Notes under the pieces: generated by a model
Databases searched by the model: none
Seen by the model: the letters and a program-made list of their open reading frames with translations, nothing else
What the model was told of the DNA's origin: nothing
Translations under genes and position numbers: made by a program
Shown here: piece after piece, positions 20,516-52,045 of the stretch
How positions within the stretch are numbered: the first letter of the stretch is position 1
Layout: every line of letters begins with the position of its first letter
NCBI GenBank assembly: GCA_003252105.1
Contig: QKDL01000088.1
Location: 1-52,045 of the forward strand
Source: Arcobacter sp.
Lineage (GTDB): Bacteria; Campylobacterota; Campylobacteria; Campylobacterales; Arcobacteraceae
Length of the DNA stretch: 52,045 nucleotides
Reading direction: 5' to 3'

Positions 20516-20654
20516 TATTCTCTCTTTTCTTTTTTGCTTGATTTTAGTATAAAGTTTATTAAATTTCTTTTTAAACCTATTGATAAAAGGCTTATTTTAC
20601 GATTATTCTACAATTTTTATGGTATCATTACAAAAATATTTGAAGAGATTATAT

Positions 20655-23014: not shown

Positions 23015-23027
23015 ATTCTACAAATCA

Positions 23028-23046
23028 TTCACAATCAATTCACAAT
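23028..23046 (+). promoter_or_regulatory. Tandem TTCACAAT boxes upstream of the cytochrome c553 gene
   Basis: TTCACAAT occurs at 23028-23035 and 23039-23046, 11 bp apart, with a degenerate third copy (TTCTACAAAT) just before. TATACT (23054-23059) and TATAAA (23065-23070) are possible -10 boxes. The spacing suits an OmpR-family activator, and the regulator gene at 20879 is the obvious candidate. Confidence 0.5.
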
Positions 23047-23086
23047 TAGTTTTTATACTTCTTCTATAAAAATCAAGGAGTATAAG

Positions 23087-23958: not shown

Positions 23959-23983
23959 TAAGAGGAGTTTAAAACTCCTCTTA
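23959..23983. terminator. Hairpin shared by the glycine-zipper gene and flagellin
   Basis: TAAGAGGAGTTT (23959-23970) and AAACTCCTCTTA (23972-23983) are exact complements with one base between. The G/C core is strong and lies between two convergent genes, reaching the flagellin stop codon. T-rich exits are weak, so the efficiency is uncertain. Confidence 0.65.
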
Positions 23984-31736: not shown

Positions 31737-34700
31737 ATGAAATATAATGAAGATACAAGAGTAAAAATACCATCTATATTACATCTTACCCGATTAGGAT
31801 ATAAGTATTTATCTTTGAAAAATTCCGAATGGGATATAAATACAAATATTTTTATAGATATCTTTAAATCTAGCATTGAAAGAATTAATACAACAATAAA
31901 TGATTTAGATTCAAATAAAGTTTATGAAGAGATTTCTTTATTACTTGATTATGAAGATCTAGGTAAAGCTTTTTACCAAAGAATTATTGAAAAATCAGGT
32001 ATAAAACTTATAGATTTTGAAAATTTTGAAAACAACTCTTTTAATGTAGTTACTGAACTTCCATGTAAAAATAGTGATGAAGAGTTTAGACCTGATATTA
32101 CACTTTTAATTAATGGTATGCCATTAGTTTTTATTGAGGTTAAAAAACCAAATAATAAAGATGGTGTATTAGCAGAAAGAGAAAGAATAAATGTAAGGTT
32201 TTCAAATGACAGGTTTAGAAAATTTATCAATATAACACAACTTATGGTATTTTCAAACAATATGGAATATGATGAAAATTCTATTGAACCAATAGAGGGA
32301 GCATTTTATGCTACACCATCAAAAAGTCCAATCTTTAACTATTTTAGAGAAGAAGAAAAATTAAATTTAGCACAACTTTTAAATGATTTGGATGATAATA
32401 CAGAAAATGAGATATTAAAAGACAATAATCTTGAAGTAATAAAAAACAATGCGGAATTTATTACAAATAAATCACCAAACACTCCAACAAACAGATTGAG
32501 TACTTCGTTGTTTTCAAAAGACAGATTAAAGTTTTTGTTAGAGTTTGGAATTGCTTATGTAAAATCAAAAGATGGTATGCAAAAACATATTATGCGATAT
32601 CCACAAATATTTGCAACAAAAGCTATTGAAAGTAAACTTGATGAGGGAATCAAGAAAGGTATTATTTGGCATACCCAAGGTAGTGGTAAAACAGCACTTG
32701 CTTTTTACAATGTAAGATATTTAACAAACTATTTTCAATCAAAAAAAATCATTCCAAAATTTTATTTTATCGTTGATAGATTAGATTTGTTAACCCAAGC
32801 AAAAAAAGAGTTTACAGCAAGAGGTTTAAAAGTTCATACCATAGCCAGCCGTGAAGATTTTGCAAAAGATATTAAAAAAACTACTGCTATTCACAATGAT
32901 AGAGGTGAATATGAGATAACAGTAGTAAATATTCAAAAATTTAAAGATGATCCTGATGTTATCTCTATACAAGATTATGATATTAACATTCAAAGAGTTT
33001 ACTTTTTAGATGAAGTTCATAGAAGTTATAATCCAAAAGGAAGTTTTTTGGCTAACTTAGAAACTTCTGATAAAAATGCAATAAAAATTGGACTAACAGG
33101 AACTCCTTTATTAGGAGAAGATACAAGTTCAAAATTATTGTTTGGTGATTATATTCATAAATATTACTATAACTCTTCTATTGCAGATGGTTATACATTA
33201 AGGCTTATAAGAGAAGAGATAGAGACAAATTATAAGTTACAATTACAAAAAGCTATTGAAGATATAGAAGTTTTACAAGGTAACTTAAAAACAGAAGAGG
33301 TTTATTCTCATAAAAAATTCGTAGAGCCAATGTTAGATTATATAATAAATGATTTTGAAAATAGTAAAATAAGATTTGATGATGACTCTATAGGTGCAAT
33401 GGTTATATGTGATAGTTCTGCACAAGCTAAAAAAATGTATGAGATATTTCAGTCAAAATATGCAAAATTAGAAGCAAGTAACAATGAAGACTTTTCAGCT
33501 CAATTTGTAGCCCAACCCCAAACTACTTATGGAACAAAGGACATTGAACTAAAAAGAGATTTAACAGCAAAAATCATTTTACACGATATAGGAACGAAAC
33601 AAGATAGAAAAGATTGGGTAGAAGAGTTCAAAGATGGAAAAATAGATTTTCTTTTTGTTTATAATATGCTTCTTACAGGATTTGATGCTCCAAGACTTAA
33701 AAAACTATATTTAGGTAGAATCATAAGACAACATGGCTTACTTCAAGCTCTTACAAGGGTAAATCGTACATACAAAAAGTTTAAATATGGGTTTGTAGTA
33801 GATTTTGCAGATATAAGTAAAGAGTTTGATGCTACAAATAAAGCTTATTTTGAAGAATTACAAATTGAATTGGGTGATGAAATGGAGTCTTACTCTTCAC
33901 TTTTTAAATCAAAAGAAGAGATAGCAGAAGAGTTAGAAAGTATAAAAGATGTATTGTTTGAATATGACACTTTAAATGCTGAAATATTCTCACAACAGAT
34001 ATCTAAAATTCAAGATATAAAAACGATGCAAGAGATAAAAAAAGCACTTGAAAATGCAAAAAGTTTATACAATCTTATAAGACTATTTGGGCATTTTGAA
34101 TTATTGGAAAAATTAGATTTTAAAAAGTTAAGTTTACTTTATAGAGAAGCTTCAAATCATCTAAATATTTTAAATCAAAAACTGGCTTTAGAAAAAGGCG
34201 ATGAAAATACAAATATTATAAATCTAGCTTTAGAAGATATCATTTTTAAATTTACAAAGATAAGTGAAGAAGAACTTGTATTAGCCGATAAATTAAAAAA
34301 TACATTGAGAAAAACAAGAGAAGCTTTTCAAAATAATTTTGATAAAAAAGACCCTCTTTATATCACTTTAAAAGAGGAACTTGAAAGACTGTTTAAAAAT
34401 AAAAATCTAAGTGAAATAAGCCAAGATGAGATGAATGAAAATATTGGTGAACTCAAAAAAATAGATGATAAGATAAGAGAGTTAAATAGACAAAATGACC
34501 TTTTAAAAGATAAATATAAAGGTGATAGAAAATATGCAAGGATGCATAAAAGAATAAAACAAAACAATATAACAGATAAACAAAGTAAGATTTTTAATGC
34601 TTTAGAAAAAATAAAAATGCAACTTGATGAAAAAGTTTTAAATAACAGTGCCATATTAAAACATGAAAACTTTTTTATAGCCCAAACAGAACCTATAGTA

Positions 34701-34817
34701 GATGTAGAGTTTGAAGATAACAATAAAATAAAATTAAATGATGAATCTTTTAGATACATCAACACTATGATAGCAACAGAATATTTAAATGAATACAACG
34801 GAGTAAATAATTGGTAA
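31737..34817 (+). CDS. hsdR: Type I restriction enzyme, R subunit
   Basis: HsdR cuts and translocates unmodified DNA. The 1026-residue protein has an N-terminal endonuclease core (Arg-Pro-Asp-Ile-Thr, then Val-Phe-Ile-Glu-Val-Lys-Lys near residue 135). A superfamily 2 motor follows, with Walker A Gly-Ser-Gly-Lys-Thr (315-319), Asp-Glu-Val-His in the DEAD position and Leu-Thr-Gly-Thr-Pro as motif III. A late Thr-Gly-Phe-Asp-Ala and Gln-Ala-Leu-Thr-Arg-Val-Asn-Arg form motifs V/VI. The C-terminal region is helical and would bind the methylase. It overlaps hsdM by seven bases and is complete. Confidence 0.96.
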   Translation: MKYNEDTRVKIPSILHLTRLGYKYLSLKNSEWDINTNIFIDIFKSSIERINTTINDLDSNKVYEEISLLLDYEDLGKAFYQRIIEKSGIKLIDFENFENNSFNVVTELPCKNSDEEFRPDITLLINGMPLVFIEVKKPNNKDGVLAERERINVRFSNDRFRKFINITQLMVFSNNMEYDENSIEPIEGAFYATPSKSPIFNYFREEEKLNLAQLLNDLDDNTENEILKDNNLEVIKNNAEFITNKSPNTPTNRLSTSLFSKDRLKFLLEFGIAYVKSKDGMQKHIMRYPQIFATKAIESKLDEGIKKGIIWHTQGSGKTALAFYNVRYLTNYFQSKKIIPKFYFIVDRLDLLTQAKKEFTARGLKVHTIASREDFAKDIKKTTAIHNDRGEYEITVVNIQKFKDDPDVISIQDYDINIQRVYFLDEVHRSYNPKGSFLANLETSDKNAIKIGLTGTPLLGEDTSSKLLFGDYIHKYYYNSSIADGYTLRLIREEIETNYKLQLQKAIEDIEVLQGNLKTEEVYSHKKFVEPMLDYIINDFENSKIRFDDDSIGAMVICDSSAQAKKMYEIFQSKYAKLEASNNEDFSAQFVAQPQTTYGTKDIELKRDLTAKIILHDIGTKQDRKDWVEEFKDGKIDFLFVYNMLLTGFDAPRLKKLYLGRIIRQHGLLQALTRVNRTYKKFKYGFVVDFADISKEFDATNKAYFEELQIELGDEMESYSSLFKSKEEIAEELESIKDVLFEYDTLNAEIFSQQISKIQDIKTMQEIKKALENAKSLYNLIRLFGHFELLEKLDFKKLSLLYREASNHLNILNQKLALEKGDENTNIINLALEDIIFKFTKISEEELVLADKLKNTLRKTREAFQNNFDKKDPLYITLKEELERLFKNKNLSEISQDEMNENIGELKKIDDKIRELNRQNDLLKDKYKGDRKYARMHKRIKQNNITDKQSKIFNALEKIKMQLDEKVLNNSAILKHENFFIAQTEPIVDVEFEDNNKIKLNDESFRYINTMIATEYLNEYNGVNNW

Positions 34818-36430
34818 TAGTAGAGTTTGAAAGAGAAACGAAAAAATTAATTGACAGTTTAAAAGCAGTATGTGCAAATTTTGGACTTGGAAATGATGGA
34901 AATGAGTTTAAAATCATTACACAAGTATTTTTATACAAGTTTTTAAATGATAAATTTGCCTATGAGATAAAAAAAATAGATGAAAATATAAAAAATGCTC
35001 CAAGTTGGGAAGAATACTATACAAACTTAAGCCAAGAACAAAGAAACAAAATACTAAGACGAATAGGAGCAAAAGCAGCAAAACTGAAGCCAGAGTATCT
35101 TATAACACATCTATTTAATATACAAGATAGTCCTGATTTTGCCCAAACTTTTGATGATACCTTACATCAAATATCTATAGAAAACAACGATATCTTTTCA
35201 GTAAAAACAGAAGGTGGTGCAAAAATAGAACTTTTTGATACTTTGAGTAAATATATTATTGATGATAAAGATGCTTTTTTTAAAGCAATTATCAATAAAC
35301 TTGTAGCTGCTTTTAGTTTTGAAAATATTTTTACACAAAAGTATGATTTCTACGCAACTATATTTGAATATCTAATCAAAGATTATAACAGTGATAGTGG
35401 TGGAAAGTATGCAGAGTATTATACTCCCCATGCAGTTGCTAAAATCATGGCGGCTATTATGGTGGATGAGGGAGTTTCAAATGTAACTTGCTATGACCCA
35501 AGTGCAGGAAGTGGAACACTTCTTATGAATATAGCTCACGCTATAGGTGAAGATAGATGTAGTATTTACTCACAAGATATATCTCAAAAATCATCAAGTT
35601 TACTTAGGCTAAATCTGATTTTAAATAACCTTGTACACTCTATATCAAATGTGATTAAAGGAAACACTCTTTTAACTCCATATCACAAAGAGGGCGAGAC
35701 TTTACAAAAGTTTGATTATATCGTATCAAATCCACCTTTTAAGACTGATTTTAGTGATTATAGAGATGATTTAGACTCCAAAGAAAACCATGATAGATTT
35801 TTTGCTGGTATTCCAAAAGTACCAGCGAAGAAAAAAGAGTCTATGGCTATTTATAGTATGTTTTTACAACATATTATCTATTCTTTAAAAAAAGGTGGAA
35901 AAGCCGCTGTTGTAGTACCAACTGGATTTATAACAGCTCAAAGTGGAATAGATAAAAAGATTAGAGAACATCTAATTGAAAAGAAAATGTTAGGTGGTGT
36001 AGTATCTATGCCAAGTAATATTTTTGCAACTACAGGAACAAATGTATCAATCATATTTATAGATGATACAAACAAAGAAAATGTAGTATTAATAGATGCT
36101 TCAAATTTAGGACAAAAAATAAAAGAGGGAAAAAATCAAAAAACAGTTCTACAAGAAGATGAGGAACAAAAAATTATAGATACTTTTAACGATAAAGTTC
36201 AAGTTGATGACTTCTCTATAGTGGTTTCTTATGATGATATAAAGCAAAAAAATTACTCTTTTAGTACAGGTCAATATTTTGATGTGAAGATAGAGTATGT
36301 GGATATTACAAAAGATGAATTTGATAAAAAGCTGAAAGAATATAGTGCAAATTTGGAGGAAATGTTTAATGAATCTAAAAGTTTAGAAAATGAGATTCAA
36401 AAGCAGTTAAAAGGTTTGTCTGTTGAGTAA
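34811..36430 (+). CDS. hsdM: Type I restriction-modification DNA adenine methylase, M subunit
   Basis: The 539-residue protein starts at a TTG with GGAG upstream. It has an N-terminal HsdM helical domain (Lys-Phe-Leu-Asn-Asp-Lys-Phe-Ala-Tyr), then a SAM site Asp-Pro-Ser-Ala-Gly-Ser-Gly-Thr-Leu-Leu and the catalytic Asn-Pro-Pro-Phe (residues 307-310) that marks N6-adenine methylases. The C-terminal helical tail contacts HsdS. It overlaps hsdR at one end and hsdS at the other, so subunit ratios are probably set by translational coupling. Confidence 0.97.
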   Translation: MVIVEFERETKKLIDSLKAVCANFGLGNDGNEFKIITQVFLYKFLNDKFAYEIKKIDENIKNAPSWEEYYTNLSQEQRNKILRRIGAKAAKLKPEYLITHLFNIQDSPDFAQTFDDTLHQISIENNDIFSVKTEGGAKIELFDTLSKYIIDDKDAFFKAIINKLVAAFSFENIFTQKYDFYATIFEYLIKDYNSDSGGKYAEYYTPHAVAKIMAAIMVDEGVSNVTCYDPSAGSGTLLMNIAHAIGEDRCSIYSQDISQKSSSLLRLNLILNNLVHSISNVIKGNTLLTPYHKEGETLQKFDYIVSNPPFKTDFSDYRDDLDSKENHDRFFAGIPKVPAKKKESMAIYSMFLQHIIYSLKKGGKAAVVVPTGFITAQSGIDKKIREHLIEKKMLGGVVSMPSNIFATTGTNVSIIFIDDTNKENVVLIDASNLGQKIKEGKNQKTVLQEDEEQKIIDTFNDKVQVDDFSIVVSYDDIKQKNYSFSTGQYFDVKIEYVDITKDEFDKKLKEYSANLEEMFNESKSLENEIQKQLKGLSVE

Positions 36431-37721
36431 AATTATATTAGCAGAAGACTATTGTGAAAAAGTCTTTGATGGGACTCATGAAACGCCTTTAGCAACCCTT
36501 GAAGGATTTCCTTTAGTAACTTCAAAGCATATAAAAAAATCAAAATTAAATCTAATGGAAACTTATAACATTTCTAATCAAGATTATGTGAAAATCAATC
36601 AAAGAAGTTCAGTTAAACAGTGGGATATATTATTTAGTATGATTGGTTCAGTAGGAGAAATATATTTAGAACAAAATAAGGAAATAAATTATGCAATAAA
36701 AAATATAGGTGTTTTTTCTTGTAATAATGAATTAAAGGCTAAATGGCTTTATTATTATTTACAAAGTCCACTTGCTAAAAGTTATATTAAAAGATATCTT
36801 AATGGTGCTGTTCAGAAATTTTTACCACTTAAAAACTTAAGAAGTTTTCCTATACAAGATTTCACAGAGTCTAAAGAAGGAATTGTGAATTTTTTATCAA
36901 TTGTTGATAAAAAGATTGAGATAAATAATCAAATAAATAAAGAATTAGAATCTATGGCTAAAACTCTTTACGGCTATTGGTTTATACAGTTTGATTTTCC
37001 AAACAAAGAAGGGAAACCATATAAATCTTCGGGTGCTAAAATGGTTTATAATGAAGTGTTAAAAAGGAAAATACCAGATAGATGGAGTATAAGTGTAATT
37101 TCAAAGGAACTTGAAACTGAATTAGGAGGAACACCATCAACAAAAAAAGATGAATTTTGGGAAAATGGTAATATACCTTGGCTAAATTCTGGAGAAATAG
37201 CTAATTTTCCAATTATTGATAGTGAAGAAAAAATTACTCTTGATGGTATAAATAATTCAGCAGCATCAATTTTATCAAAAGGGAGTGTGGTTATTTCTAT
37301 AGTGAGACATATTCGAGCATCAATTCTAACAATAGATTCTGCTACTAATCAGTCTGTTATTGGAATTAAAGAATCAGAAAAATTAAAAAGCTCTTATATA
37401 TATCCACTTATAAATAATGAAATCCCAAGATATAAGTCTTTAAGAACTGGTGCGCAGCAACCTCATATAAATAAAAAAGTTATTGATAATACTTATATCA
37501 TAATACCTGATGATAAAACACTTGAATGTTATTATAAAAAAGTTAATCCTATGTATATGAAAATATTTCAATTAGCAAAAGAAAACCAAAAATTATCAGA
37601 ATTAAGAAACTGGCTTCTTCCTATGCTTATGAATGGACAAGTAAAAGTAAAAGATGATTCCTTGCAAGACAATTTTAAAGAAGACTTAAAAGTAGCCCAA
37701 CCAAAACCAGAGTATAATTAA
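36423..37721 (+). CDS. hsdS: Type I restriction-modification specificity subunit
   Basis: HsdS sets the recognised DNA sequence. The 432-residue protein has two target-recognition domains (about 1-145 and 205-355). Each is followed by a conserved helix that spaces the half-sites (Asn-Asn-Gln-Ile-Asn-Lys-Glu-Leu-Glu-Ser-Met-Ala and Glu-Asn-Gln-Lys-Leu-Ser-Glu-Leu-Arg). The second domain starts with a typical Leu-Gly-Gly-Thr-Pro-Ser-Thr-Lys. The target cannot be read from sequence. It starts with a TTG overlapping hsdM by eight bases. There are no extra hsdS copies or inversion repeats nearby. Confidence 0.95.
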   Translation: MSKIILAEDYCEKVFDGTHETPLATLEGFPLVTSKHIKKSKLNLMETYNISNQDYVKINQRSSVKQWDILFSMIGSVGEIYLEQNKEINYAIKNIGVFSCNNELKAKWLYYYLQSPLAKSYIKRYLNGAVQKFLPLKNLRSFPIQDFTESKEGIVNFLSIVDKKIEINNQINKELESMAKTLYGYWFIQFDFPNKEGKPYKSSGAKMVYNEVLKRKIPDRWSISVISKELETELGGTPSTKKDEFWENGNIPWLNSGEIANFPIIDSEEKITLDGINNSAASILSKGSVVISIVRHIRASILTIDSATNQSVIGIKESEKLKSSYIYPLINNEIPRYKSLRTGAQQPHINKKVIDNTYIIIPDDKTLECYYKKVNPMYMKIFQLAKENQKLSELRNWLLPMLMNGQVKVKDDSLQDNFKEDLKVAQPKPEYN

Positions 37722-37793
37722 AAGTATTACATTATGAAATATTTTTTAAAAAATTTAAATCATCATGTTATCATAAAATAAAAAAGTAAAATT

Positions 37794-38786
37794 ATGGAAA
37801 ATCAAAATATCTTAATCTATGAAAACCAAAATGGAAATATCAAAGTTGATGTAAGATTTGAAGATAAATCTATTTGGCTAAATCAAGCCCAAATATGTGA
37901 ACTATATGGTAAAGCTAAGTCAACTATAAGTGAGCATATAAAAGCTATATTTGAAGATAAAGAGTTGGACAGAGATTCAACTGTTCGGTATTACCGAACA
38001 GTTCAACTTGAAGGCTCACGAGAAGTTTCAAGAAATATTGAGCATTATAATCTAGATATGATAATAGCTTTAGGTTTTAAAGTTCGTTCAAACACTGGTA
38101 CAAAGTTTAGAATCTGGGCAAATCAAAAGCTAAAAGAGTATATTACTAAAGGTTTTGTACTGGATGATGATAGATTTAAAAATGGCAATCAAATGTCATA
38201 TTTTGATGAGCTTCAAAACCGCCTTAGAGAGATACGACTTAGTGAGAAGTTTTTCTATCAAAAAATTAAAGATATCTATATGACAAGTATAGATTATAAC
38301 CCAAAAGATGAAAAAACAATAGAGTTTTTCAAAATAGTTCAAAACAAACTTTTATGGGCTGTATCATCCCAAACAGCAGCCGAACTTGTGCATAATCGTG
38401 TGGATATAACAAAACCACTTTTAGGTATGAGTTCATATGATAAAGAGAATAAAAACATCAGTAAAAAAGATGTAAATGTGGCAAAAAACTATTTAAATGA
38501 AGAGGAGATAAAACTTCTAGGACTTTTAGTGGAACAATACTTAGCTTTCGCAGAAACGATGGCAAATCAGCAAACTCCTATGTATATGAAAGATTGGATT
38601 GAAAGACTTGATTTAATCTTATCTATGAATGGAAGAGATCTTTTGAAAAATGCTGGAAAAATATCTCACCAAATAGCAAAAGAAAAAAGTGAATTAGAGT
38701 ATAAAAAATATAAACAACAGCAAAAAGATTTGCAAATGAGCGAGAGTATTAAAGAATTGGAAGAGGATATTAAAAAATTAAGATAA
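37794..38786 (+). CDS. RhuM-family protein
   Basis: The 330-residue protein matches the RhuM family first seen in a Salmonella pathogenicity island. It opens with Ile-Trp-Leu-Asn-Gln-Ala-Gln-Ile-Cys-Glu-Leu-Tyr-Gly and Ser-Thr-Ile-Ser-Glu-His-Ile, a helix-turn-helix-like part. Then come Tyr-Asn-Leu-Asp-Met-Ile-Ile-Ala-Leu-Gly-Phe and Phe-Arg-Ile-Trp-Ala-Asn-Gln. The middle and end are helical. Function is unknown. Such genes travel with type I restriction sets and genomic islands. A perfect palindrome lies within codons 62-70. Confidence 0.9.
   Translation: MENQNILIYENQNGNIKVDVRFEDKSIWLNQAQICELYGKAKSTISEHIKAIFEDKELDRDSTVRYYRTVQLEGSREVSRNIEHYNLDMIIALGFKVRSNTGTKFRIWANQKLKEYITKGFVLDDDRFKNGNQMSYFDELQNRLREIRLSEKFFYQKIKDIYMTSIDYNPKDEKTIEFFKIVQNKLLWAVSSQTAAELVHNRVDITKPLLGMSSYDKENKNISKKDVNVAKNYLNEEEIKLLGLLVEQYLAFAETMANQQTPMYMKDWIERLDLILSMNGRDLLKNAGKISHQIAKEKSELEYKKYKQQQKDLQMSESIKELEEDIKKLR
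37979..38003 (+). repeat. 25-bp perfect palindrome inside the RhuM gene
   Basis: AACTGTTCGGTA (37979-37990), one T, then TACCGAACAGTT (37992-38003) are exact reverse complements within coding DNA. The 12-bp arms contain G/C steps that are rare in this genome. It encodes the Thr-Val-Arg-Tyr-Tyr-Arg-Thr-Val stretch just after the predicted helix-turn-helix. Confidence 0.85.
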
Positions 38787-43424: not shown

Positions 43425-44033
43425 TCAAGCTTGATTTTTAAAAAATAGAGCTAAAGATAATCTATCTTTTTGATTAAGTTTTTTTAATAAAGAACTAACA
43501 TGTTTTTTTACAGTAACCTCTGCTAAATTTAAAGTTTGTGAAATATCATGATTATTTAATCCTTGAGCTACTAATTCTAATACTTCAAGTTCTTTTACGC
43601 TTACTTTTTCTAAAAGTTTATTTTTGTTGTTTTCTTGTAATGGAATAGATGATATTAAAAATTGCATCAACTCTGGATATAACCATACATTTCCATTAAT
43701 TACTGCATTTATTGCATCCTCTAGTATATGTATATTTGATATAGCATGCATATAGGCTTTAACATTGTGTTTTAATAAACTACAACCTTCTATATTGTTA
43801 GGATTATTTCTTAATACAATCAATTTATATGAATCAAATAGTTCAGATATTATATTAAATAGATTTTGATAATTTTCATCATAATCTAAATGATGCAAAA
43901 ATATTATATTTTCATTTATATCCAAAGAATAGAGTTCATCAATTGTTTTTACTATATTTATATTTGTAAATATAGTTGACTTTTTTAATTCATTTATCAG
44001 AAAACCTGTATTAGAAAAGAGTACTATTTTCAT
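43425..44033 (-). CDS. LuxR/NarL-type regulator of the secretion locus
   Basis: The 202-residue protein has a receiver-like N-terminal half (alternating strands and helices) with weak conservation of the acidic pocket, so it may not be phosphorylated. A C-terminal GerE helix-turn-helix follows: Leu-Glu-Val-Leu-Glu-Leu-Val-Ala-Gln-Gly-Leu-Asn-Asn, then Val-Thr-Val-Lys-Lys-His-Val-Ser-Ser-Leu-Leu. It overlaps the adaptor gene by four bases, so it is the second gene of that operon. No histidine kinase is adjacent, so it probably reports through the PAS-bearing adaptor or acts constitutively. Convergent Sua5 gene abuts with no gap. Confidence 0.85.
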   Translation of the reverse strand: MKIVLFSNTGFLINELKKSTIFTNINIVKTIDELYSLDINENIIFLHHLDYDENYQNLFNIISELFDSYKLIVLRNNPNNIEGCSLLKHNVKAYMHAISNIHILEDAINAVINGNVWLYPELMQFLISSIPLQENNKNKLLEKVSVKELEVLELVAQGLNNHDISQTLNLAEVTVKKHVSSLLKKLNQKDRLSLALFFKNQA

Positions 44034-45766
44034 ATTCCTAATGACCTTACAATTGGTTTTAATATATAGCTTAAGATTGTTTTTTTACCTGTGATGATAT
44101 CTGCATCAACTGTCATACCTGGTTTTATCTCTAGTTTTTTATTATTACTTAGATATTTTGTATTTGATTTAATATGTATGATATATATTTCTTTATCTTT
44201 ATCTTGTGGATCTTTTAGTGTATTTGCGGATATATAACTAATTTTAGCATCAACAGCACCATAAAGTGAGAAGTCATAAGCTCTTAATTTAAGTCTAACG
44301 TCTTGTCCTATATATAAAAATCCAATATCAGCTGGGTCAATTTTAACCTCTGCTAGAAGATATTCTGTATCTGGAATAATTTCAGCAATAACAGTACCAG
44401 AAGATACAGCTTCACCTTTTGTTTGAATATTTATTTTATTTATTACACCATCACTAGGAGATGATATATTTGTTTCTGTGATTTTTTCTTTTAAAAATGA
44501 TATTTCATTTTTAACTTGATTTAAATCATTCATTGTAACTATTAGCTCATCTTTTGCAGAAGAGTGATATGTTTCTTTTGTCTCTTCAATACTTTTTTTA
44601 ATTTCATTAATTGCTGACTTAAGAGTAGGGATTGAACCTTTTAATTTTTTGATTTCTGATATAACATCATTCTCTTTTCTTTGTAAGTCTATAAGTTCTA
44701 CTTTTGAAATTATCCTTTCTTCAATCAAAGGTATTTTTATTTTCATCTCTCTTTTAATTAGTTTATAATTATCTTCTGTGATTTTTAGATTTTTATAAGC
44801 ATCTTCTAAATCATTTCTTCTTTGAATCAATTGCTCTTGTAAAACATTTATTGATGCGGTAAATCTTTTTTTATTTATAGCATAAAGTTCAAGTTCATTT
44901 TGCATAATTTCAGGATTATAAGACATAACATCTTGGTTTGTATTCATTGCTATGTTTTGAGACTGAGCTTTTAATCTTTCTATTTTTGCTAAAAGAGACA
45001 TCTGATTATCTAGATTTTTTTTATATTCACTTTTATATTTTAAGTCAGATAGTTTTAGTAGTTCTTGACCTTTTTTAACTCTATCACCTTCTTTTATGTA
45101 TATCTCTTTTAATATACCACCTTCTAAAGAAGAGATTGTTTGAACATTTGTAGTTGTGATTATTTTACCATTACTTCTAACAATATCATCAACTTTTGAA
45201 AAATATGACCATCCTAATAAAAAGATTATAGTAAAAGTGATTAGCCATAATACTTTATGTAATCCACTAGGAGTTCTTAGCAATACAGCAGAAGAAAGTG
45301 AAGGCATGAAATCAAGTACAGTTTTATCATGTTTCTTTTTTAATATATTTTCTTCATTGATTTTTTTTAATTTTTTCTCTTTTGTTATATCTGAACTAGC
45401 TAAAATAAAACCAACATTTTTTTTATCATCATTAAATAATGGAGAAATAATTGTATCTGTCCAGATTGTTTCATCATTAAAGCCAGAATGTTTTACTTCC
45501 CCTTTCCAGTCAGTTTTTAGTCTTCTAGTTTCTGAAAATTGGTTTTCAAAACTTATAATTGAATCTTTTTTTATAAGAAATGTATAAGGTTTATTAAGTA
45601 AATCTGATGTTTTATATTTAAAAACATTACATAGATTTGTACTAACATGTTTTATTATTCCATCATTATCAGTAACGGCTAATATTACATAGTTGTCAAG
45701 TAATTCCCTATTTTGGAACGTAAAGCTTCTTTTTAGTTCTTGATCTAATACTTGATTCTCTTCCAC
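44030..45766 (-). CDS. HlyD-family secretion adaptor with an N-terminal PAS domain
   Basis: The 578-residue protein is a type I secretion membrane-fusion protein: one inner-membrane helix (about 171-189), a biotinyl-lipoyl half (Ile-Ser-Ser-Leu-Glu-Gly-Gly-Ile-Leu near 211), a long coiled coil, the second lipoyl half and a beta-barrel. In ordinary HlyD/LapC proteins the part before the membrane is short. Here it is about 170 residues and carries a PAS domain (roughly 24-130): Asn-Tyr-Val-Ile-Leu-Ala-Val-Thr-Asp-Asn-Asp-Gly-Ile-Ile, Leu-Asn-Lys-Pro-Tyr and Gly-Phe-Ile-Leu-Ala-Ser-Ser-Asp-Ile-Thr. So a cytosolic sensor is fused to the secretion channel. It is transcribed with the LuxR gene and divergent from the TolC-ABC-adhesin set. 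Confidence 0.9.
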   Translation of the reverse strand: MEENQVLDQELKRSFTFQNRELLDNYVILAVTDNDGIIKHVSTNLCNVFKYKTSDLLNKPYTFLIKKDSIISFENQFSETRRLKTDWKGEVKHSGFNDETIWTDTIISPLFNDDKKNVGFILASSDITKEKKLKKINEENILKKKHDKTVLDFMPSLSSAVLLRTPSGLHKVLWLITFTIIFLLGWSYFSKVDDIVRSNGKIITTTNVQTISSLEGGILKEIYIKEGDRVKKGQELLKLSDLKYKSEYKKNLDNQMSLLAKIERLKAQSQNIAMNTNQDVMSYNPEIMQNELELYAINKKRFTASINVLQEQLIQRRNDLEDAYKNLKITEDNYKLIKREMKIKIPLIEERIISKVELIDLQRKENDVISEIKKLKGSIPTLKSAINEIKKSIEETKETYHSSAKDELIVTMNDLNQVKNEISFLKEKITETNISSPSDGVINKINIQTKGEAVSSGTVIAEIIPDTEYLLAEVKIDPADIGFLYIGQDVRLKLRAYDFSLYGAVDAKISYISANTLKDPQDKDKEIYIIHIKSNTKYLSNNKKLEIKPGMTVDADIITGKKTILSYILKPIVRSLGI

Positions 45767-45894
45767 TTCTAGCCTTAAAATTAGATTATTTGAAAAAATT
45801 AATAAATTTTAGTACAATTTTATTCAAAATTTGATAAAAATTTGGTAAGATAACTAAATAATATCTTTTTTTATGAAGGAAAGTAAATTAAATA
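45767..45894. promoter_or_regulatory. Divergent promoter region of the secretion locus
   Basis: The 128 bases between the adaptor and TolC genes are almost pure A/T. They contain two AAAATTTG octamers (45826-45833 and 45837-45844) with 11-bp spacing, which could be a regulator site for both transcripts. A GAAGGAAAG ribosome region precedes the TolC ATG. No sequence matches the palindrome before the adhesin gene. Confidence 0.4.
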
Positions 45895-48663
45895 ATGAAA
45901 TTACATAGAATTATACTAATTTTATTTTGTTTTTTTATGACTATTTCTAATGCATTTACCTTAACTGATGGATATAAATTTGCTTTAGAAAATGATATGA
46001 ATTCTAAAATAAATGAAAATAATATCAAAAAAATAAAATTTGATAAAGATATTGCAAATTCATTATTAAATCCAAAATTGGATTTCAACGCAACTGTTGA
46101 AACATCAAAATATACAGAAAATCAATTAACTCCTAACAACAATAAAAACCATACAAAAGCTGATGAATATAAACTTACATTAACGCAGCCAATATTTGAT
46201 GGTTTTGAATCAGATAGTGAAAAAAAATTACAAAAATATAGATTTGAATCAGCTCTTTTTTATTTAAAAGAGAGCCAAAATAATGTTGCTTTGAATTACA
46301 CACAAAATTATATAAATACACTTAAACAAAAAGATTTACTAAGTTTAAATAAAGAAGCTGTTTTAATAAGCGAAGAGATATTTAACAAAGTTTATAAAAA
46401 AGTAGCTAGTGGATATGGTACAAAATTAGAGTTTGATGAAGCAAAAAGTCAACTTGCAGAAAACAGAGTAAACTTAAAAGTTCAAAAAATAAATCTAAAA
46501 GAAGCAATAGAAAGCTTAAGATTTTATGTACAAAAAGATTTTGATACAAGTGAACTAATAAAGCCAAATTTTTATTATCCATTGCCTAAAACATTAGATG
46601 ATGCAATAGCTGCTTCAATGGATAAAAATCCATCTTTAATGGTTAGTAAATTAAATTTAAAAGTTGCAATCTTTGAAGAACAAAAAAATGATAAAAACTT
46701 CTTACCAAATGTTGATTTTGTAGGTTCTTATCAAGTAAATGATGCATTACACACAACTACAGATGAAAACAATCAATATAAAGTAGGATTTCAAATTAAT
46801 TATAACTTATATAATGGTGGCAAAGATAGTTTAGAGAGGAAAAAAGCATTACAAGATATAAAAGAGAAACATTTTTTAATTACAAAATCTGAATATGAGA
46901 TTAAAAACAAACTTCGATTAGCTTGGAATAGTTACAAACTAAATGAAGAAAAATTTGATACTTTAGAACAATATTTATTAGTAAAAAAAGACGTTCTTGA
47001 TGCAACAATCAAAGAGTTTGACCTTGGAACTAGAGATTTAAACAATCTTTTAACTATTCATACTGAATATGTAGATGTAAAAAAAGATTTTATTTCAACA
47101 ACTTATGATTTATTATTAGCAAAATATAGAGTTTTGGATGCAATAGGTTTATTATCTGATACTTTACAAAATAAAATGCCAACTTTAGAAAAAATAAAAT
47201 TGAGTGAAAAATCAAGTCGTAATTTATTTGAACAAACTGATTATAATTTTGATAAATCAGATGCCTTAAACAAGAAAAAATTATCATATCAAATATCTGA
47301 AGCAAAACTTGATAAGGTTTTATTACCACCATTAAAATTAGAAGATGATACATTAAATGATAAAGAAGATATATATGCAGATAACGATAATAAAGAAGAG
47401 ATAGAACTAGAAGAAAAACAAGAACAAACAATTACACAAAAAGAAGCAAAAAGTTTTAAAGAGAAGTTTTTAACTGCATCAAAAAATAAATATACAATAA
47501 ATTTAGCAATGTCGGATAGCAAAAAAAGGGCTAAATGGCTTATTCAAAGATACAATCTAGAAAATGATGCATTTTATTTTAGTTTTAGATATGAAAATCC
47601 ACTACAAAAAGTTATGATGGGGATTTATGATAGTAAAAAAGAAGCTCAAGAGGCTATAAATAGTTTACCAGATAGATTAAAAAAATATGGGCCAAAGATA
47701 GAGAAAGTTTCAGTAAAACAACAATTATATAAAAAATACCATACAGAAGACTATTTAAGAATTAAAAAACAAAATGAATATATAGTTGAAAAAAAACCAA
47801 TATTATATAAAAATGATATATATTCAAATAAAGATATAAAAACAAATATAAATCAAATTGAGGTTTCAAAAGAAACTAAAATAGAAGAAAAACAAGAACA
47901 AATAATTATACAAAAAGAAGAAAAAAGTTTTAAAGAGAAGTTTTTAACTGCATCAAAAAATAAATATACAATAAATTTAGCAATGTCAGATAGTACAAAA
48001 AGGGCAAAATGGCTTATCCAAAGATACAATTTAGAAAATGATGCATTTTATTTTAGTTTTAGATATGAAAATCCACTACAAAAAGTTATGATGGGGATTT
48101 ATAATAGTAAAAAAGAAGCTCAAGAGGCTATAAATAGTTTACCAGATAGATTAAAAAAATATGGGCCAAAGATAGAGAAAGTTTCAGTAAAACAACAATT
48201 ATATAAAAAATACCATACAGAAGACTATTTAAGAATCAAAAAACAAGAAAATTTTCTTGTAAAAAAGAAGCACTACAATACAAAAGAGATTACAAAAATA
48301 GAAAAAGTTGAAGCGAAAGAAAATCAAATAACTCAAAATAAAAGCTTCAAAGATAAATTTTTGGATGCAAAAAAAGACAAATATACAATAAATTTAGCTA
48401 TATCAGATAGTAAAAAAAGAGCTAAGTGGTTGATAAATAAATATAATTTACAAAATAAAGCATTTGCTTTTAAAATTAGAGATGAAAAGCCACTACATAG
48501 AATAATATATGGTGTTTTTGATACAAAAGATGAAGCGTATACAGCACTAAATAATTTGGATGAAAAATTAAAATCTAATTTGCCAATTGTTGAAAAAATT
48601 GAAAGAAAACAAAAACTTTATTATAAATATAATAGCTTAGATACTATTTCAGAAAGAATTTAA
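45895..48663 (+). CDS. TolC-family outer-membrane channel with three C-terminal SPOR-like repeats
   Basis: The 922-residue protein has a signal peptide and a TolC fold in its first 430 residues: four long coiled-coil helices and two beta parts, with Leu-Thr-Leu-Thr-Gln-Pro-Ile-Phe-Asp-Gly and its pseudo-repeat Gln-Ile-Asn-Tyr-Asn-Leu-Tyr-Asn-Gly. After a polar linker come three repeats of about 105 residues, starting near residues 519, 677 and 816. Each has Lys-Tyr-Thr-Ile-Asn-Leu-Ala and an Lys-Glu-Ala-Gln-Glu-Ala-Ile-Asn-Ser-Leu-Pro phrase typical of DamX-type SPOR domains, which bind peptidoglycan stripped of side chains. A TolC with SPOR tails would anchor the channel in the wall. It is followed by the exporter ATPase six bases on. 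Confidence 0.88.
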   Translation: MKLHRIILILFCFFMTISNAFTLTDGYKFALENDMNSKINENNIKKIKFDKDIANSLLNPKLDFNATVETSKYTENQLTPNNNKNHTKADEYKLTLTQPIFDGFESDSEKKLQKYRFESALFYLKESQNNVALNYTQNYINTLKQKDLLSLNKEAVLISEEIFNKVYKKVASGYGTKLEFDEAKSQLAENRVNLKVQKINLKEAIESLRFYVQKDFDTSELIKPNFYYPLPKTLDDAIAASMDKNPSLMVSKLNLKVAIFEEQKNDKNFLPNVDFVGSYQVNDALHTTTDENNQYKVGFQINYNLYNGGKDSLERKKALQDIKEKHFLITKSEYEIKNKLRLAWNSYKLNEEKFDTLEQYLLVKKDVLDATIKEFDLGTRDLNNLLTIHTEYVDVKKDFISTTYDLLLAKYRVLDAIGLLSDTLQNKMPTLEKIKLSEKSSRNLFEQTDYNFDKSDALNKKKLSYQISEAKLDKVLLPPLKLEDDTLNDKEDIYADNDNKEEIELEEKQEQTITQKEAKSFKEKFLTASKNKYTINLAMSDSKKRAKWLIQRYNLENDAFYFSFRYENPLQKVMMGIYDSKKEAQEAINSLPDRLKKYGPKIEKVSVKQQLYKKYHTEDYLRIKKQNEYIVEKKPILYKNDIYSNKDIKTNINQIEVSKETKIEEKQEQIIIQKEEKSFKEKFLTASKNKYTINLAMSDSTKRAKWLIQRYNLENDAFYFSFRYENPLQKVMMGIYNSKKEAQEAINSLPDRLKKYGPKIEKVSVKQQLYKKYHTEDYLRIKKQENFLVKKKHYNTKEITKIEKVEAKENQITQNKSFKDKFLDAKKDKYTINLAISDSKKRAKWLINKYNLQNKAFAFKIRDEKPLHRIIYGVFDTKDEAYTALNNLDEKLKSNLPIVEKIERKQKLYYKYNSLDTISERI
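47410..47771 (+). repeat. First copy of a 362-bp coding repeat (SPOR unit)
   Basis: This segment recurs at 47884-48245, 474 bases further on, with about eleven differences, most of them silent or in the linker. It encodes the first SPOR-like unit and its lead-in. The closeness indicates a recent in-frame duplication. Confidence 0.9.
47884..48245 (+). repeat. Second copy of the 362-bp SPOR coding repeat
   Basis: It is about 97% identical to 47410-47771 over the full length. A third, clearly older unit follows from 48340 with only protein-level similarity. Unequal recombination between the two close copies could change the number of SPOR units without a frameshift, because the 474-base period is divisible by three. 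Confidence 0.9.
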
Positions 48664-48669
48664 CAAATA

Positions 48670-50862
48670 ATGACAAAACAAAATGATAATATAAATTTGA
48701 ATAATATAAAAGAATATGATAAACAAGACTCTTTGCTTGATTGTCTTGCTCTTTTTTGTAAAATGAATGGGAGACCTTTTTCTAAAGAGTCTCTAATCTC
48801 TGGTTTACCTATTGAAAGTGATAGAAATACTCCAATTCTTTTTTCAAAATATAATTCTAAAGCCCTTTTTTCTAGAGCTGCATCAAAAGCTGGATTTAAA
48901 ACAAAAGTTTTAAGAAGTAAATTAACTGAAATAAACCCTTTATTATTACCTTGTGTTTTGCTTATCGATAATAGTCCCAATGAGGATAAATTAGAAGGGT
49001 GTATATTACTTGGTTTTGATGATGAGTTAAAAAATGCAAGAATAACTTTGCCAGAAGCTCCTGATGTAGAAACAACTATAAGTATTGAGGATTTACAAAA
49101 AAGCTATTTTGGTTTTGCAATATTATTAAAAAAACAATTAAGTTTTAAAGAGAATGAATCAGCCCTTTCTAGTGTAAAAGAGAGTCACTGGTTATGGGGA
49201 AGTGTGAAGATTGTTAGGGATGTTTATAGAGATGTAATTATTGCATCATTATTAATAAATCTTTTTGTATTATCAACACCTTTGTTTACTATGAATGTGT
49301 ATGATAGAGTTATTCCTAATAATGCAAAAGATACTTTGTGGTTATTGGCTATTGGTGTTGTTGTAATTTATGGTATTGATATTATTTTAAAATTTTTAAG
49401 ATCATATTTTTTGGAAACAGCTGCTAAAAAAACAGATATTATCGCATCATCTATTATATTTGAAAAAGTTTTAGATTTGAAAATGTCATCGGTACCTAAT
49501 TCTGTTGGTTCTTTGGCAAATATATTAAAAGAGTTTGAGAGTATTAGAGGGTTTCTTACATCTACTACAATCGCACTTTTGATTGATATACCTTTTATTT
49601 TTATATTTTTAATAGCAATATATTTTATTGGTGGAGCTTTAGTTTTTGTTCCTATTAGTGTAATTATAATTATTTTAATTTATACATATTATGCAAAAAT
49701 AAAATTAGCGAATAGTATTAAAGAATCTTATGATGCTGGTTCTAATAAAAATGGGGTATTGATTGAGAGTTTATCTTCTATAGAGACTATTAAATCACTT
49801 GGTGCTACAGGTTATTCTCAATGGAGATGGGAAGAAGCTACATCAAAAATTGCTGATAAGAGTATTAAAAGTAAAATGATATCATCTTCCATTACTACTG
49901 TTACATCATTTTTAGTACAGTTAAATACTGTAGCTTTAGTAATAATAGGTACGTATATGATTGCCGAAAATAACTTAAGTATGGGTGGATTGATTGCAAC
50001 TATTATTATCTCTTCTAGAACAATTTCTCCTATGGGACAAGTTTCATCACTTTTATCAACATTTCAACATACAAAAACTACATATGAAGCTTTAAATGAT
50101 ATTATGAATTTACCAGTTGAACATCCACAAGGTAAAAAGTTTGTTGCAAGACCAGAATATAGAGGAAAAATTGATTTTAAAAATGTAACATTTACTTATC
50201 CAAATGCAGATAAAGAGACTTTAAGTAATGTATCTTTTAGTATTGAACCTGGTGAGAAGATTGGTATAATTGGAAAAATAGGTTCAGGTAAAACTACAAT
50301 TCAAAAACTTTTAGTATCTTTATATCATCCAGAAGAGGGATCAATTTTGATTGATAATATCGATATTAAGCAGTTAGATCCTTCTGAACTTAGAAAAAAT
50401 GTTGCGTATGTTTCGCAAGATATTTTATTGTTTAATGGAACAGTAAAAGAAAATATTGTTTATAGAACACCCCATATTGATGATGATAAGATTTTAGAAG
50501 CAGCTGAGATAAGTGGTGTTTTAAATTTTGTAAACAAACATCCAAAAGGGTTCGATATGCCAGTTGGTGAGAGAGGATCTTTTCTTTCTGGTGGTCAAAA
50601 ACAGAGTATAGCTATCGCTAGATCGATTTTATTGCCTTATCCTATTGTTTTACTAGATGAACCTACAAGTTCAATGGATACTTCAACAGAAACAAGGTTT
50701 ATAAACAATATTCGAGAATATCAAAAAGACAAAACTGTAATATTAGTTACTCATAAAACATCTTTATTAAGACTTGTAGATAGAATAATTGTACTTGAAG
50801 ATGGTAAAGTTGTTCTTGATGGAAATAAAGACCAAATTCTACAAAAATTAGCTAAAAAATAA
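48670..50862 (+). CDS. Type I secretion ABC exporter with degenerate C39-like domain
   Basis: The 730-residue protein powers export through the adaptor and TolC channel. Residues 1-150 form a C39-peptidase-like domain in which the catalytic Cys motif is replaced by Asp-Ser-Leu-Leu-Asp-Cys-Leu-Ala, as in LapB and HlyB-like exporters where it holds the substrate without cutting. Five or six membrane helices follow, then the ATPase: Walker A Gly-Ser-Gly-Lys-Thr (538-542), signature Leu-Ser-Gly-Gly-Gln-Lys-Gln-Ser and Walker B Leu-Leu-Asp-Glu-Pro-Thr. The adhesin gene starts about 100 bases later. Confidence 0.95.
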   Translation: MTKQNDNINLNNIKEYDKQDSLLDCLALFCKMNGRPFSKESLISGLPIESDRNTPILFSKYNSKALFSRAASKAGFKTKVLRSKLTEINPLLLPCVLLIDNSPNEDKLEGCILLGFDDELKNARITLPEAPDVETTISIEDLQKSYFGFAILLKKQLSFKENESALSSVKESHWLWGSVKIVRDVYRDVIIASLLINLFVLSTPLFTMNVYDRVIPNNAKDTLWLLAIGVVVIYGIDIILKFLRSYFLETAAKKTDIIASSIIFEKVLDLKMSSVPNSVGSLANILKEFESIRGFLTSTTIALLIDIPFIFIFLIAIYFIGGALVFVPISVIIIILIYTYYAKIKLANSIKESYDAGSNKNGVLIESLSSIETIKSLGATGYSQWRWEEATSKIADKSIKSKMISSSITTVTSFLVQLNTVALVIIGTYMIAENNLSMGGLIATIIISSRTISPMGQVSSLLSTFQHTKTTYEALNDIMNLPVEHPQGKKFVARPEYRGKIDFKNVTFTYPNADKETLSNVSFSIEPGEKIGIIGKIGSGKTTIQKLLVSLYHPEEGSILIDNIDIKQLDPSELRKNVAYVSQDILLFNGTVKENIVYRTPHIDDDKILEAAEISGVLNFVNKHPKGFDMPVGERGSFLSGGQKQSIAIARSILLPYPIVLLDEPTSSMDTSTETRFINNIREYQKDKTVILVTHKTSLLRLVDRIIVLEDGKVVLDGNKDQILQKLAKK

Positions 50863-50895
50863 ATATAAAATAACTTTTTTTATTTAAATATATAC

Positions 50896-50909
50896 TAAAG
50901 TATACTTTA
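50896..50909 (+). promoter_or_regulatory. 14-bp palindrome in the adhesin promoter region
   Basis: TAAAGTATACTTTA (50896-50909) is a perfect palindrome immediately before a possible -35 (TTGAAT 50911-50916) and -10 (TATACT 50932-50937, spacer 15, short). A dimeric regulator such as the LuxR-type protein at 43425 could bind it. Confidence 0.45.
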
Positions 50910-50966
50910 CTTGAATAGTAAATTTTTATATTATACTTGTAATAAAATGATAATAAAGGACTCATC

Positions 50967-52045
50967 ATGGCTATTGCAAGAATTTCAGATATAAAAGGTT
51001 TAGTAACAATAGGTGGAGAAACTGAAGAGATATTAAAAAATAGGGATTTGATATCTGAACATGGCGGTATTTTAACTATCGAAGAGTTTGCAAAGATAAT
51101 TTTTGAAGATGGCAGAGAAGTAGATGTAACTGGACCTGTTTCTTTTAGTTTAGATAGTTCATTTTTCAATGAGGGAACTTTTGAAGAATCAATAACACAA
51201 ATTAGTGATTTAGCTAGTTTAGAATATGTAAATAATATTATTGATACTCCTGATAATCAAACAGAGATTGATAATAATCTATCATCACAAACAAATATTC
51301 AGCCTACAATTGAAACTGAACAATTAAATTCAAATTTAGAAAATAATGATATCACATTAGATGAGCAAGTATCTTTAGTCGCAAGAGAAGAGGCAACAAC
51401 ACAAGAAATCACTCCAACAGAAGAGACTCCAATAGAAGAACCTGTGATAGAAGAGTTAATAACTGAAGAACCAACGACTGAAGAACCAACGACTGAAGAA
51501 CCAACGACTGAAGAACCAACGACTGAAGAACCGGTAGTAGAAGATCCAATTGCAGAAGAAACTCCAGTTGAAGAACCAATATTCGAAGCAGGTATAGAAG
51601 TAGGAACACCAACAGTAACAATTGAAGCAGCAGATGTAAATGGGGATTCAGTTTATAGTGCAGTAGAATTAGGTGAAGATGGAACAGTAAACGCAACAAT
51701 CACGGCACCAGTAGATGCACAACTTGGAGATACTATCACATATACAGTTGATGGTGGAGAAGAAGTAGAAGTAGAAATAACACAAGATGTATTAGATAAT
51801 GGAATCACAATTGAAATTAACCCAGAATCTACAGTAAGTGCTACATTAACAGATGCAGCTGGAAACACATCAGATTCTGCAAGTGCAACAGCATTCGAAG
51901 CAGATACAAGCGCAGATGCAGGAGAAGTAACAGTAGATACAATTGCAGGAGATGATATTATCAATGCATCAGAAGCTGGAGAAGCTACAATAGCAGTAAG
52001 TGGAACAGCAACAGGTGGAGATATCGCAGCCGGAGATAGTGTAAC
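50967..52045 (+). CDS. N-terminal part of a giant type I secreted adhesin (runs off the window)
   Basis: The frame opens at ATG 50967 after AAAGGA and stays open to the window edge, at least 359 residues. Residues 1-75 (Ile-Lys-Gly-Leu-Val-Thr-Ile-Gly-Gly, then Ile-Ile-Phe-Glu-Asp-Gly) resemble the N-terminal retention module of LapA-type adhesins. Next comes an acidic Glu-Pro-Thr linker (about 130-205) with a 15-bp tandem repeat, then Ig-like repeats with Asp-Ala-Ala-Gly-Asn-Thr-Ser and Thr-Val-Asp-Thr. The sequence is strongly acidic with no Cys in sight. The preceding exporter and channel would secrete it. The C-terminal signal and calcium-binding repeats are outside the window. Confidence 0.85.
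   Translation, partial: MAIARISDIKGLVTIGGETEEILKNRDLISEHGGILTIEEFAKIIFEDGREVDVTGPVSFSLDSSFFNEGTFEESITQISDLASLEYVNNIIDTPDNQTEIDNNLSSQTNIQPTIETEQLNSNLENNDITLDEQVSLVAREEATTQEITPTEETPIEEPVIEELITEEPTTEEPTTEEPTTEEPTTEEPVVEDPIAEETPVEEPIFEAGIEVGTPTVTIEAADVNGDSVYSAVELGEDGTVNATITAPVDAQLGDTITYTVDGGEEVEVEITQDVLDNGITIEINPESTVSATLTDAAGNTSDSASATAFEADTSADAGEVTVDTIAGDDIINASEAGEATIAVSGTATGGDIAAGDSV
51465..51539 (+). repeat. 15-bp tandem repeat in the adhesin linker
   Basis: GAAGAACCAACGACT occurs four times in tandem (51465-51524), followed by a fifth diverged unit GAAGAACCGGTAGTA (51525-51539). It encodes Glu-Glu-Pro-Thr-Thr units from residue 167. Copies are identical, so it is young or actively maintained, and changes in number stay in frame. 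Confidence 0.92.

Follow-up and report, generated by a model that had tools for sequence, protein, structure and literature searches.

The export locus

The stretch of DNA analysed here (the window, 52,045 nucleotides from an Arcobacter sp.) is the entire contig G000:C3 of its source genome, which bears the code G000, and it contains between positions 43425 and 52045 the five genes of a type I secretion system (T1SS) locus: a LuxR-type regulator, an HlyD adaptor carrying a PAS domain (PAS-HlyD), a TolC-family channel with three SPOR copies, an ABC exporter of the LssB/LapB type, and a giant adhesin. The regulator and adaptor genes form a pair that is divergent from the channel, exporter and adhesin genes. 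An earlier note, made from the sequence of this DNA, had described regulator, adaptor, channel, exporter with a C39-like domain and adhesin start as one divergent locus, and all of them lie as it described. The locus is not a product of chance, since the same gene set recurs in relatives.

The regulator, a LuxR/NarL-type protein of 202 residues (43425..44033, minus strand), contains a GerE helix-turn-helix (E=2.4e-14), and the start of its gene overlaps the stop of the adaptor gene by 4 nucleotides. The adaptor (44030..45766, minus strand; 578 residues, GTG start) was assigned with Pfam and TIGR01843. Its HlyD part occupies residues 171-575 (44042..45256, minus strand), with a TIGR01843 score of 335 bits against a cut-off of 208.65 and a model match that begins at residue 171. 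The PAS domain, which is probably cytosolic, lies at residues 26-130 (45377..45691, minus strand; PAS_9 E=2.2e-14, matched at residues 30-129), and between the PAS and HlyD parts a single membrane span can be read from the sequence at residues 171-190 (45197..45256, minus strand).

Across the divergent intergenic region (45767..45894) from this pair lies the gene for the TolC-family outer membrane channel (45895..48663, plus strand; 922 residues), whose OEP match (E=3.8e-40) scores 138.2 bits against a cut-off of 22 and whose TIGR01844 score of 203.5 bits falls below the cut-off of 225.15. PF05036 matches three stretches of this protein (E=2.8e-23), and with a home-made profile the C-terminal SPOR copies were placed, all on the plus strand, at residues 520-612 (47452..47730, 126.8 bits, also found with PF05036), 678-770 (47926..48204, 124.6 bits) and 817-909 (48343..48621, 119.2 bits, with the best PF05036 stretch at 828-889). 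The exporter (48670..50862, plus strand; 730 residues) scores 893.7 bits with TIGR03375 against a cut-off of 693.1. Its C39-like N-terminus looks degenerate: at the positions that we take to be catalytic, the cysteine is kept in most rows of the alignment and the expected histidine was not seen.

The adhesin start (50967..52043, plus strand; 359 residues) consists of a distinct N-terminal module, which lacks the LapG cleavage motif discussed below, followed by Ig-like repeats, for which the Ig_like_ice match (8e-13, 48.2 bits) is slightly below the cut-off of 50. The open reading frame runs without a stop to the window end, and because the window is the whole contig and the assembly stops inside the adhesin, the protein is truncated and its C-terminus is not readable here.

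Distribution, origin and gene order of the fused adaptor

A profile built from nine PAS-HlyD proteins was run over 104 Arcobacteraceae genomes, and the full-length fusion was found in 12 of them (G000, G004, G007, G009, G014, G033, G016, G023, G435, G314, G028 and G449), the first five of which are among the 16 genomes from the genus of the window. Fused adaptors are separated from those without a PAS domain by a fall in score from 660 to 427 bits, and the non-fused adaptors listed at E<=1e-90 all start at profile position 98 or beyond. A draw of genomes at the level of the order gave a fused PAS-HlyD in 8 of 398, all of them Arcobacteraceae, with at most three candidates scored per genome at E<=1e-125, settings that would pass over weaker fusions. 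Named genome contigs, scanned with a pattern, gave 34 loci, and in three of these (L049, L050 and L051) the match extended into the PAS part.

In a tree of the HlyD part a branch of support 90/92, which is not starred, separates the 12 fused proteins from all other rows, in agreement with a single origin of the fusion. This tree has 83 rows, the original 90 minus seven long ones, and requires one change for the PAS domain; the 90-row tree required two, owing to a long-branch pair.

The LuxR gene adjoins the PAS-HlyD gene in all 12 carrier genomes, with the 4-nucleotide overlap present in eight (from coordinates), and the system that the earlier note proposed, in which an adhesin has its own exporter, a PAS-tailed adaptor and a LuxR protein, is kept as a set throughout these 12. 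Nine loci have LuxR and PAS-HlyD divergent from the channel, exporter and adhesin genes, six of them without an extra gene (G000, G004, G007, G009, G014 and G033) and three (G016, G023 and G435) with a lipoprotein-like gene of 184-197 residues before the adhesin. This extra gene, which lies between exporter and adhesin at 11976-12527 of L043 in G016 and also in L045 (G023) and L110 (G435), encodes in G016 a protein that matched no Pfam family. In six of the 12 genomes the locus comes after carB and a gene of the Sua5 type, and in the remainder it has other neighbours.

In G028 and G449 the genes are colinear with LuxR last, and histidine-kinase-like genes adjoin both loci (L047 8352-10214 and L113 3581-5782). 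The G314 locus, which fits within about 12.4 kb, has its two halves pointing at each other, PAS-HlyD and LuxR being directed towards the end of the adhesin gene; the possibility that this locus is split was rejected, since its genes are contiguous and only turned round. A genome that is 54% complete (G431) holds orthologues of the PAS-locus channel and exporter on a 4.3-kb contig, and neither PAS-HlyD nor the upstream element ACYAAAGTATAMTTTAC described below was found in this incomplete assembly.

Structure and conservation of the PAS domain

The assignment of the PAS fold by Pfam agrees with structure prediction. The AlphaFold2 (AF2) model, made from four sequences, has a core with a predicted local distance difference test (pLDDT) score of about 90, the standard order of PAS elements, and then a helix at residues 128-147. 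A Foldseek search with this model gave 565 matches in the PDB (E<=0.001), and at the top, within the best 50 of the 565, stand LOV structures and PAS domains of other kinds. The nearest PDB chains by sequence are Aer (8dik) and MmoS (3ewk), both at E of about 1e-4; Aer and MmoS are flavin-binding redox sensors. The LOV, haem and flavin adenine dinucleotide (FAD) types were all considered as candidates for the domain.

Among the ten closer PAS-HlyD proteins, mean identity in the PAS domain is 0.73, with 56 of 110 positions invariant, compared with 0.55 and 61 of 240 invariant positions in the lipoyl and helical part; the barrel part, at 0.69, comes near the PAS value. With its conservation above that of the lipoyl and helical part, the PAS domain looks selected.

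The channel and its SPOR copies

SPOR copies occur in the channels of 11 of the 12 PAS loci, G314 alone being without them. They are C-terminal, in one to three copies, in nine loci and N-terminal in G028 and G449, where they were detected by BLAST and the home-made profile and missed by Pfam. SPOR copies were also found, with the home-made profile, in 11 of 13 TolC reading frames from outside PAS loci, a proportion that is not a frequency, the 13 having been chosen partly by length and the profile having been built from matches in the same set. The 11 are those of G462, G459, G401, G434, G435b, G329, G009b, G020 and G427, the second TolC of G023, and, with a weaker match, a TolC on contig C51 of the window's own genome (G000_C51); the TolCs of G000_C12 and G431 gave no match. 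The SPOR-bearing channel stands beside an HlyD without PAS domain in G462, G459, G434, G435b, G329, G009b and G020 and beside a shortened HlyD in G401, and there is no HlyD gene within the stretch fetched for G427. TolC-SPOR was for this reason rejected as a mark of the PAS system, and the constant co-occurrence of PAS-HlyD and TolC-SPOR for which the earlier note had suggested a survey does not hold: the PAS adaptor is accompanied by SPOR in 11 of 12 cases, but SPOR is frequent without PAS.

The earlier note also supposed that the channel binds the wall. A passage of PMC6895207 gives as the most conserved glycan-contact residue of SPOR domains a glutamine (RlpA Q270, DamX Q351). All three copies in the window read YTINLA, with asparagine at the glutamine place as judged by eye, and by the same judgement the copies of the other PAS loci also have asparagine there, except for an aspartate in G028. 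Copies in non-PAS channels mostly have asparagine, with serine in G462 and G459, lysine in G000_C51 and, in one of three copies of the second G023 channel, tyrosine, again placed by eye. Of 30 further SPOR loci fetched from the family, 21 contain a motif with glutamine, and nine have no match to the expression used. Because the glutamine is replaced, the TolC SPOR domains appear to form a subfamily tied to T1SS loci, with an uncertain ligand, and because this residue is the one that contacts denuded glycan, the supposition of wall binding is weakened.

A second type of channel ends in an OmpA domain; this was found by Pfam in the second T1SS locus of G014 and by BLAST in G000_C57, G016b and G334, and further members were inferred from length only. 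The source genome itself holds three further T1SS loci, on contigs C57 (L203), C12 (L206) and C51 (L207), the first with a TolC-OmpA channel, a LuxR and a LapA-type adhesin and the last with the TolC of weaker SPOR match already mentioned. In G023 a separate export locus (L045/L046) encodes, in the reading frame 20400-23378 of the joined stretch, a TolC-like protein of 992 residues that carries three SPOR copies.

The regulator and the element upstream of the adhesin gene

A receiver domain was not recognised in the LuxR protein, in which PF00072 had no match at E<=0.1, and its alignment has no aspartate at what is presumably the phospho-receiver place.

A stretch, ACYAAAGTATACTTTAC, is common to the upstream regions of six adhesin genes. 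With one mismatch allowed, the 12 PAS-HlyD genomes contain it once each, and it is also present in one of 11 genomes of the same genus without PAS-HlyD (G010); a reversed-pattern control gave four matches in the 23 genomes. Within the window alone the 12-bp core, with one mismatch, occurs once where 1.25 occurrences are expected, so that the case for the element rests on the relatives. There the 17-bp pattern ACYAAAGTATAMTTTAC, without mismatch, is found in 12 of the 104 family genomes, which are exactly the PAS-HlyD carriers, in one copy each, and in none of the other 92, and a control pattern gave one match in the 104 genomes. The pattern was first drawn up from six loci, was made degenerate at one place following the one-mismatch search and was then counted, and because that place was set only after the search, the count is mainly a test of the 92 other genomes.

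In the window the element reads ACTAAAGTATACTTTAC (50894..50910, plus strand), with the palindromic core AAAGTATACTTT; the earlier note does not mention it, and it was recognised by comparison of relatives. Its end lies 53-56 bp from the adhesin start codon in the 11 loci measured, and in G449 it stands on a separate contig, directly before an open frame that resembles an adhesin start. Only the adhesin gene was found to have the element before it, PAS-HlyD and TolC having none. The element overlaps a -35-like hexamer that is followed 17 bp on by a -10-like hexamer (TTTACT-17-TATTAT, 50906..50934, plus strand), a promoter-like site with nine of 12 consensus positions; such sites number three in the stretch against 1.6 in shuffles, which is weak when taken by itself. 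A site that overlaps the -35 region is typical of activators that touch the polymerase.

A related half, ACCAAAGTA, is present before the adhesins of G462, G459 and G434 and, with one change, of G329, all four being LuxR-linked loci of the SPOR type without PAS; it was not seen before the LapG-type adhesins of G014b, G000_C57 and G016b (both by eye). The element is probably the operator of LuxR, and the simplest reading makes LuxR an activator. The suggestion of the earlier note that LuxR sets expression gains strong indirect support from the one-to-one occurrence of the element upstream of the adhesin gene.

The LapG-type loci of G000 (C57, L203) and G014 (L040) have, as judged by eye, an inverted repeat ATCACCC..GGGTGAT in the DNA that separates LuxR from the adhesin; it may be an operator or a terminator.

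The adhesin and the LapG protease

The adhesins that could be read whole, from seven genomes (G004, G007, G014, G033, G016, G023 and G314), range from 1112 to 5046 residues, that of G314 having 1705; the G009 adhesin is broken by a run of N, and the G435 adhesin runs past the fetched stretch. A comparison of the N-terminus with seven LapA-type N-termini, made with hhalign as a test for a LapA-type retention module, was weak (probability 2%, E 0.024), and the AF2 model of the N-terminus is poor (pLDDT 45).

According to a passage of PMC13090378, the cleavage site of LapG proteases is [T/A/P]AAG and follows an N-terminal retention module. This motif is present at residues 119-128 in five of seven adhesins from LuxR-linked loci without PAS and is absent from residues 1-200 in all ten PAS-locus adhesins counted (p=0.003), of which the one of G435 could be read only to residue 167. 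Four sites or look-alikes at 225-257 in the adhesins of G004, G007, G014 and G033 lie, by eye, in the repeat part. The adhesins of G028 and G449 stand outside the count of ten; in the first 300 residues of the G028 adhesin the LapG motif was not found.

The protease gene is likewise missing from the neighbourhood. No LapG gene lies within 25 kb of PAS-HlyD at any of the 12 loci, compared with 15 of 26 loci whose TolC has at least 840 residues (p=8e-4), in a comparison that covers the 46 genomes with complete LapG lists and in which distance is limited by contig ends, seven of the 12 PAS loci lying on contigs that carry no LapG. When the open reading frames of the 11 PAS regions other than the window were compared by BLAST with a single lapG and a single lapD query, matches came only from the second T1SS of G014, which is a separate locus, and, for LapD, from a different locus of G023, where the match was weak and partial (23%); Peptidase_C93 has no match among the 26 window proteins scanned with Pfam. 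G028 and G449 have PAS-HlyD and no LapG match anywhere in the genome. In the family as a whole, LapG-family genes are present in 85 of the 104 genomes (84 above the cut-off); the idea that LapG is missing from the window's own genome was rejected, three matches having been found there.

Interpretation

Given the observed gene content, fusion and conservation, the distribution of the element, and the lack of both a LapG motif and a neighbouring LapG gene, the locus is best read as a LapG-independent T1SS for an adhesin, with expression controlled by LuxR and export probably gated by the PAS-tailed adaptor, a reading to which we assign a probability of roughly 0.55. On this reading LuxR, with its degenerate receiver, would bind ACYAAAGTATAMTTTAC at the -35 region and activate the adhesin promoter. 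The PAS domain, joined by a helix to the membrane span and situated next to the exporter, would respond to redox state, oxygen or a small ligand in the cytosol, and this signal would alter the adaptor and thereby open or close export. The adhesin would be held in the channel by its distinct N-terminal module, and the SPOR copies would probably hold the channel to the wall or place it there. Because the adhesin would not be released by LapG, control would be exerted at expression and export and not at LapD/LapG release. The least supported step in this scheme is the role of the PAS domain as export gate, and the particular proposal that the adaptor PAS gates export according to the state of the cell interior and replaces the LapD/LapG switch, with LuxR and its private operator setting expression, is put forward tentatively, at slightly less than even odds.

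Several observations weigh against this reading. No ligand or cofactor signature was recognised in the PAS domain by sequence comparison, and the FAD-ligand residues of Aer are not kept at the aligned places. The PAS domains of G028 and G449 have an identity of only about 0.26 with those of the other ten, between which groups the signal may differ. Same-family LuxR proteins occur in 10 of 15 non-PAS T1SS regions examined (nine beside HlyD, one beside TolC), so that LuxR is not specific to PAS. Ten of the 12 PAS genomes encode LapG at other places, from where it could act in trans. When all 81 non-PAS loci are taken together, 21 have LapG within 25 kb, and the difference from the PAS loci reaches only p=0.06. 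The seven comparison adhesins include the close relatives G459/G462 and G434/G329, so that the five with the motif are not five independent cases. The LapG-type adhesins of the second G014 locus and of the window's own genome (C57) have TAEG in place of [T/A/P]AAG, the other adhesins of non-PAS loci in the family having [T/A]AAG there; the motif thus held only partly as a clean divider, and its absence alone is no proof of independence from LapG. The separation from LapD/LapG control implied in the earlier note stands at the level of the locus but not at that of the genome.

One alternative for the PAS domain is that it is a docking module and not a sensor, binding the C39-like domain of the exporter or the adhesin and so recruiting the giant substrate. 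The cytosolic tails of HlyD-type adaptors take part in substrate recruitment, there is one adhesin gene per exporter, the PAS domain is conserved like the rest of the machine, and no cofactor residues were recognised in it. Adaptors of the same family without PAS, however, also adjoin giant adhesin genes, and the fold in the AF2 model is that of a standard PAS domain ending in a helix, as sensors have, which leaves docking somewhat unlikely. It is also conceivable that PAS-HlyD senses a signal and holds or releases LuxR, tying adhesin transcription to a working exporter; the constant adjacency of the two genes, their frequent overlap, the lack of a phospho-receiver match in LuxR, and the fact that the pair stays joined in G314, where other genes are turned round, all agree with this, but LuxR also follows an HlyD without PAS in nine regions, and such signalling appears quite improbable.

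The release of the adhesin and the ownership of the element bear on the remaining alternatives. Were this an ordinary LapA-like system, LapD and LapG encoded elsewhere would release the adhesin in trans, and the PAS and SPOR domains would be decorations. The wide presence of LapG in the family and in most PAS genomes would permit this, and a passage of PMC6890996 describes LapG acting on adhesins encoded elsewhere in V. cholerae. The distribution of the cleavage motif (0/10 against 5/7) and the two PAS genomes without any LapG match make it distinctly improbable. That the element at 50894-50910 serves a regulator other than LuxR is suggested by its position before the adhesin alone, but its perfect co-occurrence with the PAS-HlyD locus and the presence of the ACCAAAGTA half before four other LuxR-linked adhesins, and not before three LapG-type ones (by eye), argue for LuxR and render a different regulator rather unlikely.

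Other genes of the window

Elsewhere in the window are a type I restriction-modification set (HsdR, HsdM and HsdS by Pfam) followed by a RhuM-family gene (31737-38786), genes for flagellar FliP and a FliK-like hook-length protein adjoining a penicillin-binding protein (759-6377), and a flagellin gene (23981-24811).

Comparison with known systems

For giant adhesins of the LapA type the prevailing view places control mainly at release, by way of cyclic di-GMP (c-di-GMP), LapD and LapG. The PAS loci resemble LapA/LapBCE with LapD/LapG of Pseudomonas fluorescens, and FrhA/CraA of V. cholerae, in having a LapB-type exporter, an HlyD, a TolC-like channel and a giant repeat adhesin; they differ in the PAS domain on the adaptor, in their own LuxR and element, in the lack of LapD/LapG at the locus, and in an adhesin N-terminus without the LapG motif. 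DvhA/DvhG/DvhD of Desulfovibrio vulgaris, as described in a passage of PMC13090378, is also a Lap-like adhesin system with deviating control proteins, in which the c-di-GMP receptor differs in domains from LapD and the protease is kept, whereas the PAS loci have no protease arm at the locus and carry a sensor-like domain on the export machine itself.

Closer at hand are the TolC-OmpA loci (G014 second, G016b, G334 and C57), which share with the PAS loci an LssB exporter, an HlyD, a LuxR and a channel with an added wall-type domain, and differ from them in having OmpA for SPOR and an adaptor without PAS. The giant adhesin adjoins the T1SS in all of these but G334, and LapG and LapD are present in G014, G016b and G334 and were not seen on C57, which ends in the adhesin. 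The SPOR proteins DamX, FtsN and RlpA resemble the channels of the PAS loci in that a SPOR fold, by Pfam, is appended to an envelope protein, but in the latter the conserved glutamine is an asparagine, or an aspartate in G028 (by eye).

If the present reading is correct, loci that have lost the release site and carry a PAS domain on the export adaptor would demonstrate control of adhesion exerted directly on export. The fused sensor domain suggests that the state of its own interior, and not the known protein-cutting switch, may be what a cell uses to turn adhesion on. The regulatory half of the proposal is directly testable, since the 17-bp element is single in each genome and confined to genomes with the PAS locus, and the subfamily of TolC-SPOR channels with a changed glutamine raises the separate question of what such channels bind. 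Among the papers listed in searches of the open-access literature, none dealt with PAS-HlyD, with TolC-SPOR in a T1SS or with Lap control in Arcobacter-like bacteria; the individual parts are known, and no paper among those listed describes the combination of a PAS-tailed T1SS adaptor with a private regulator element and the loss of the LapG site.

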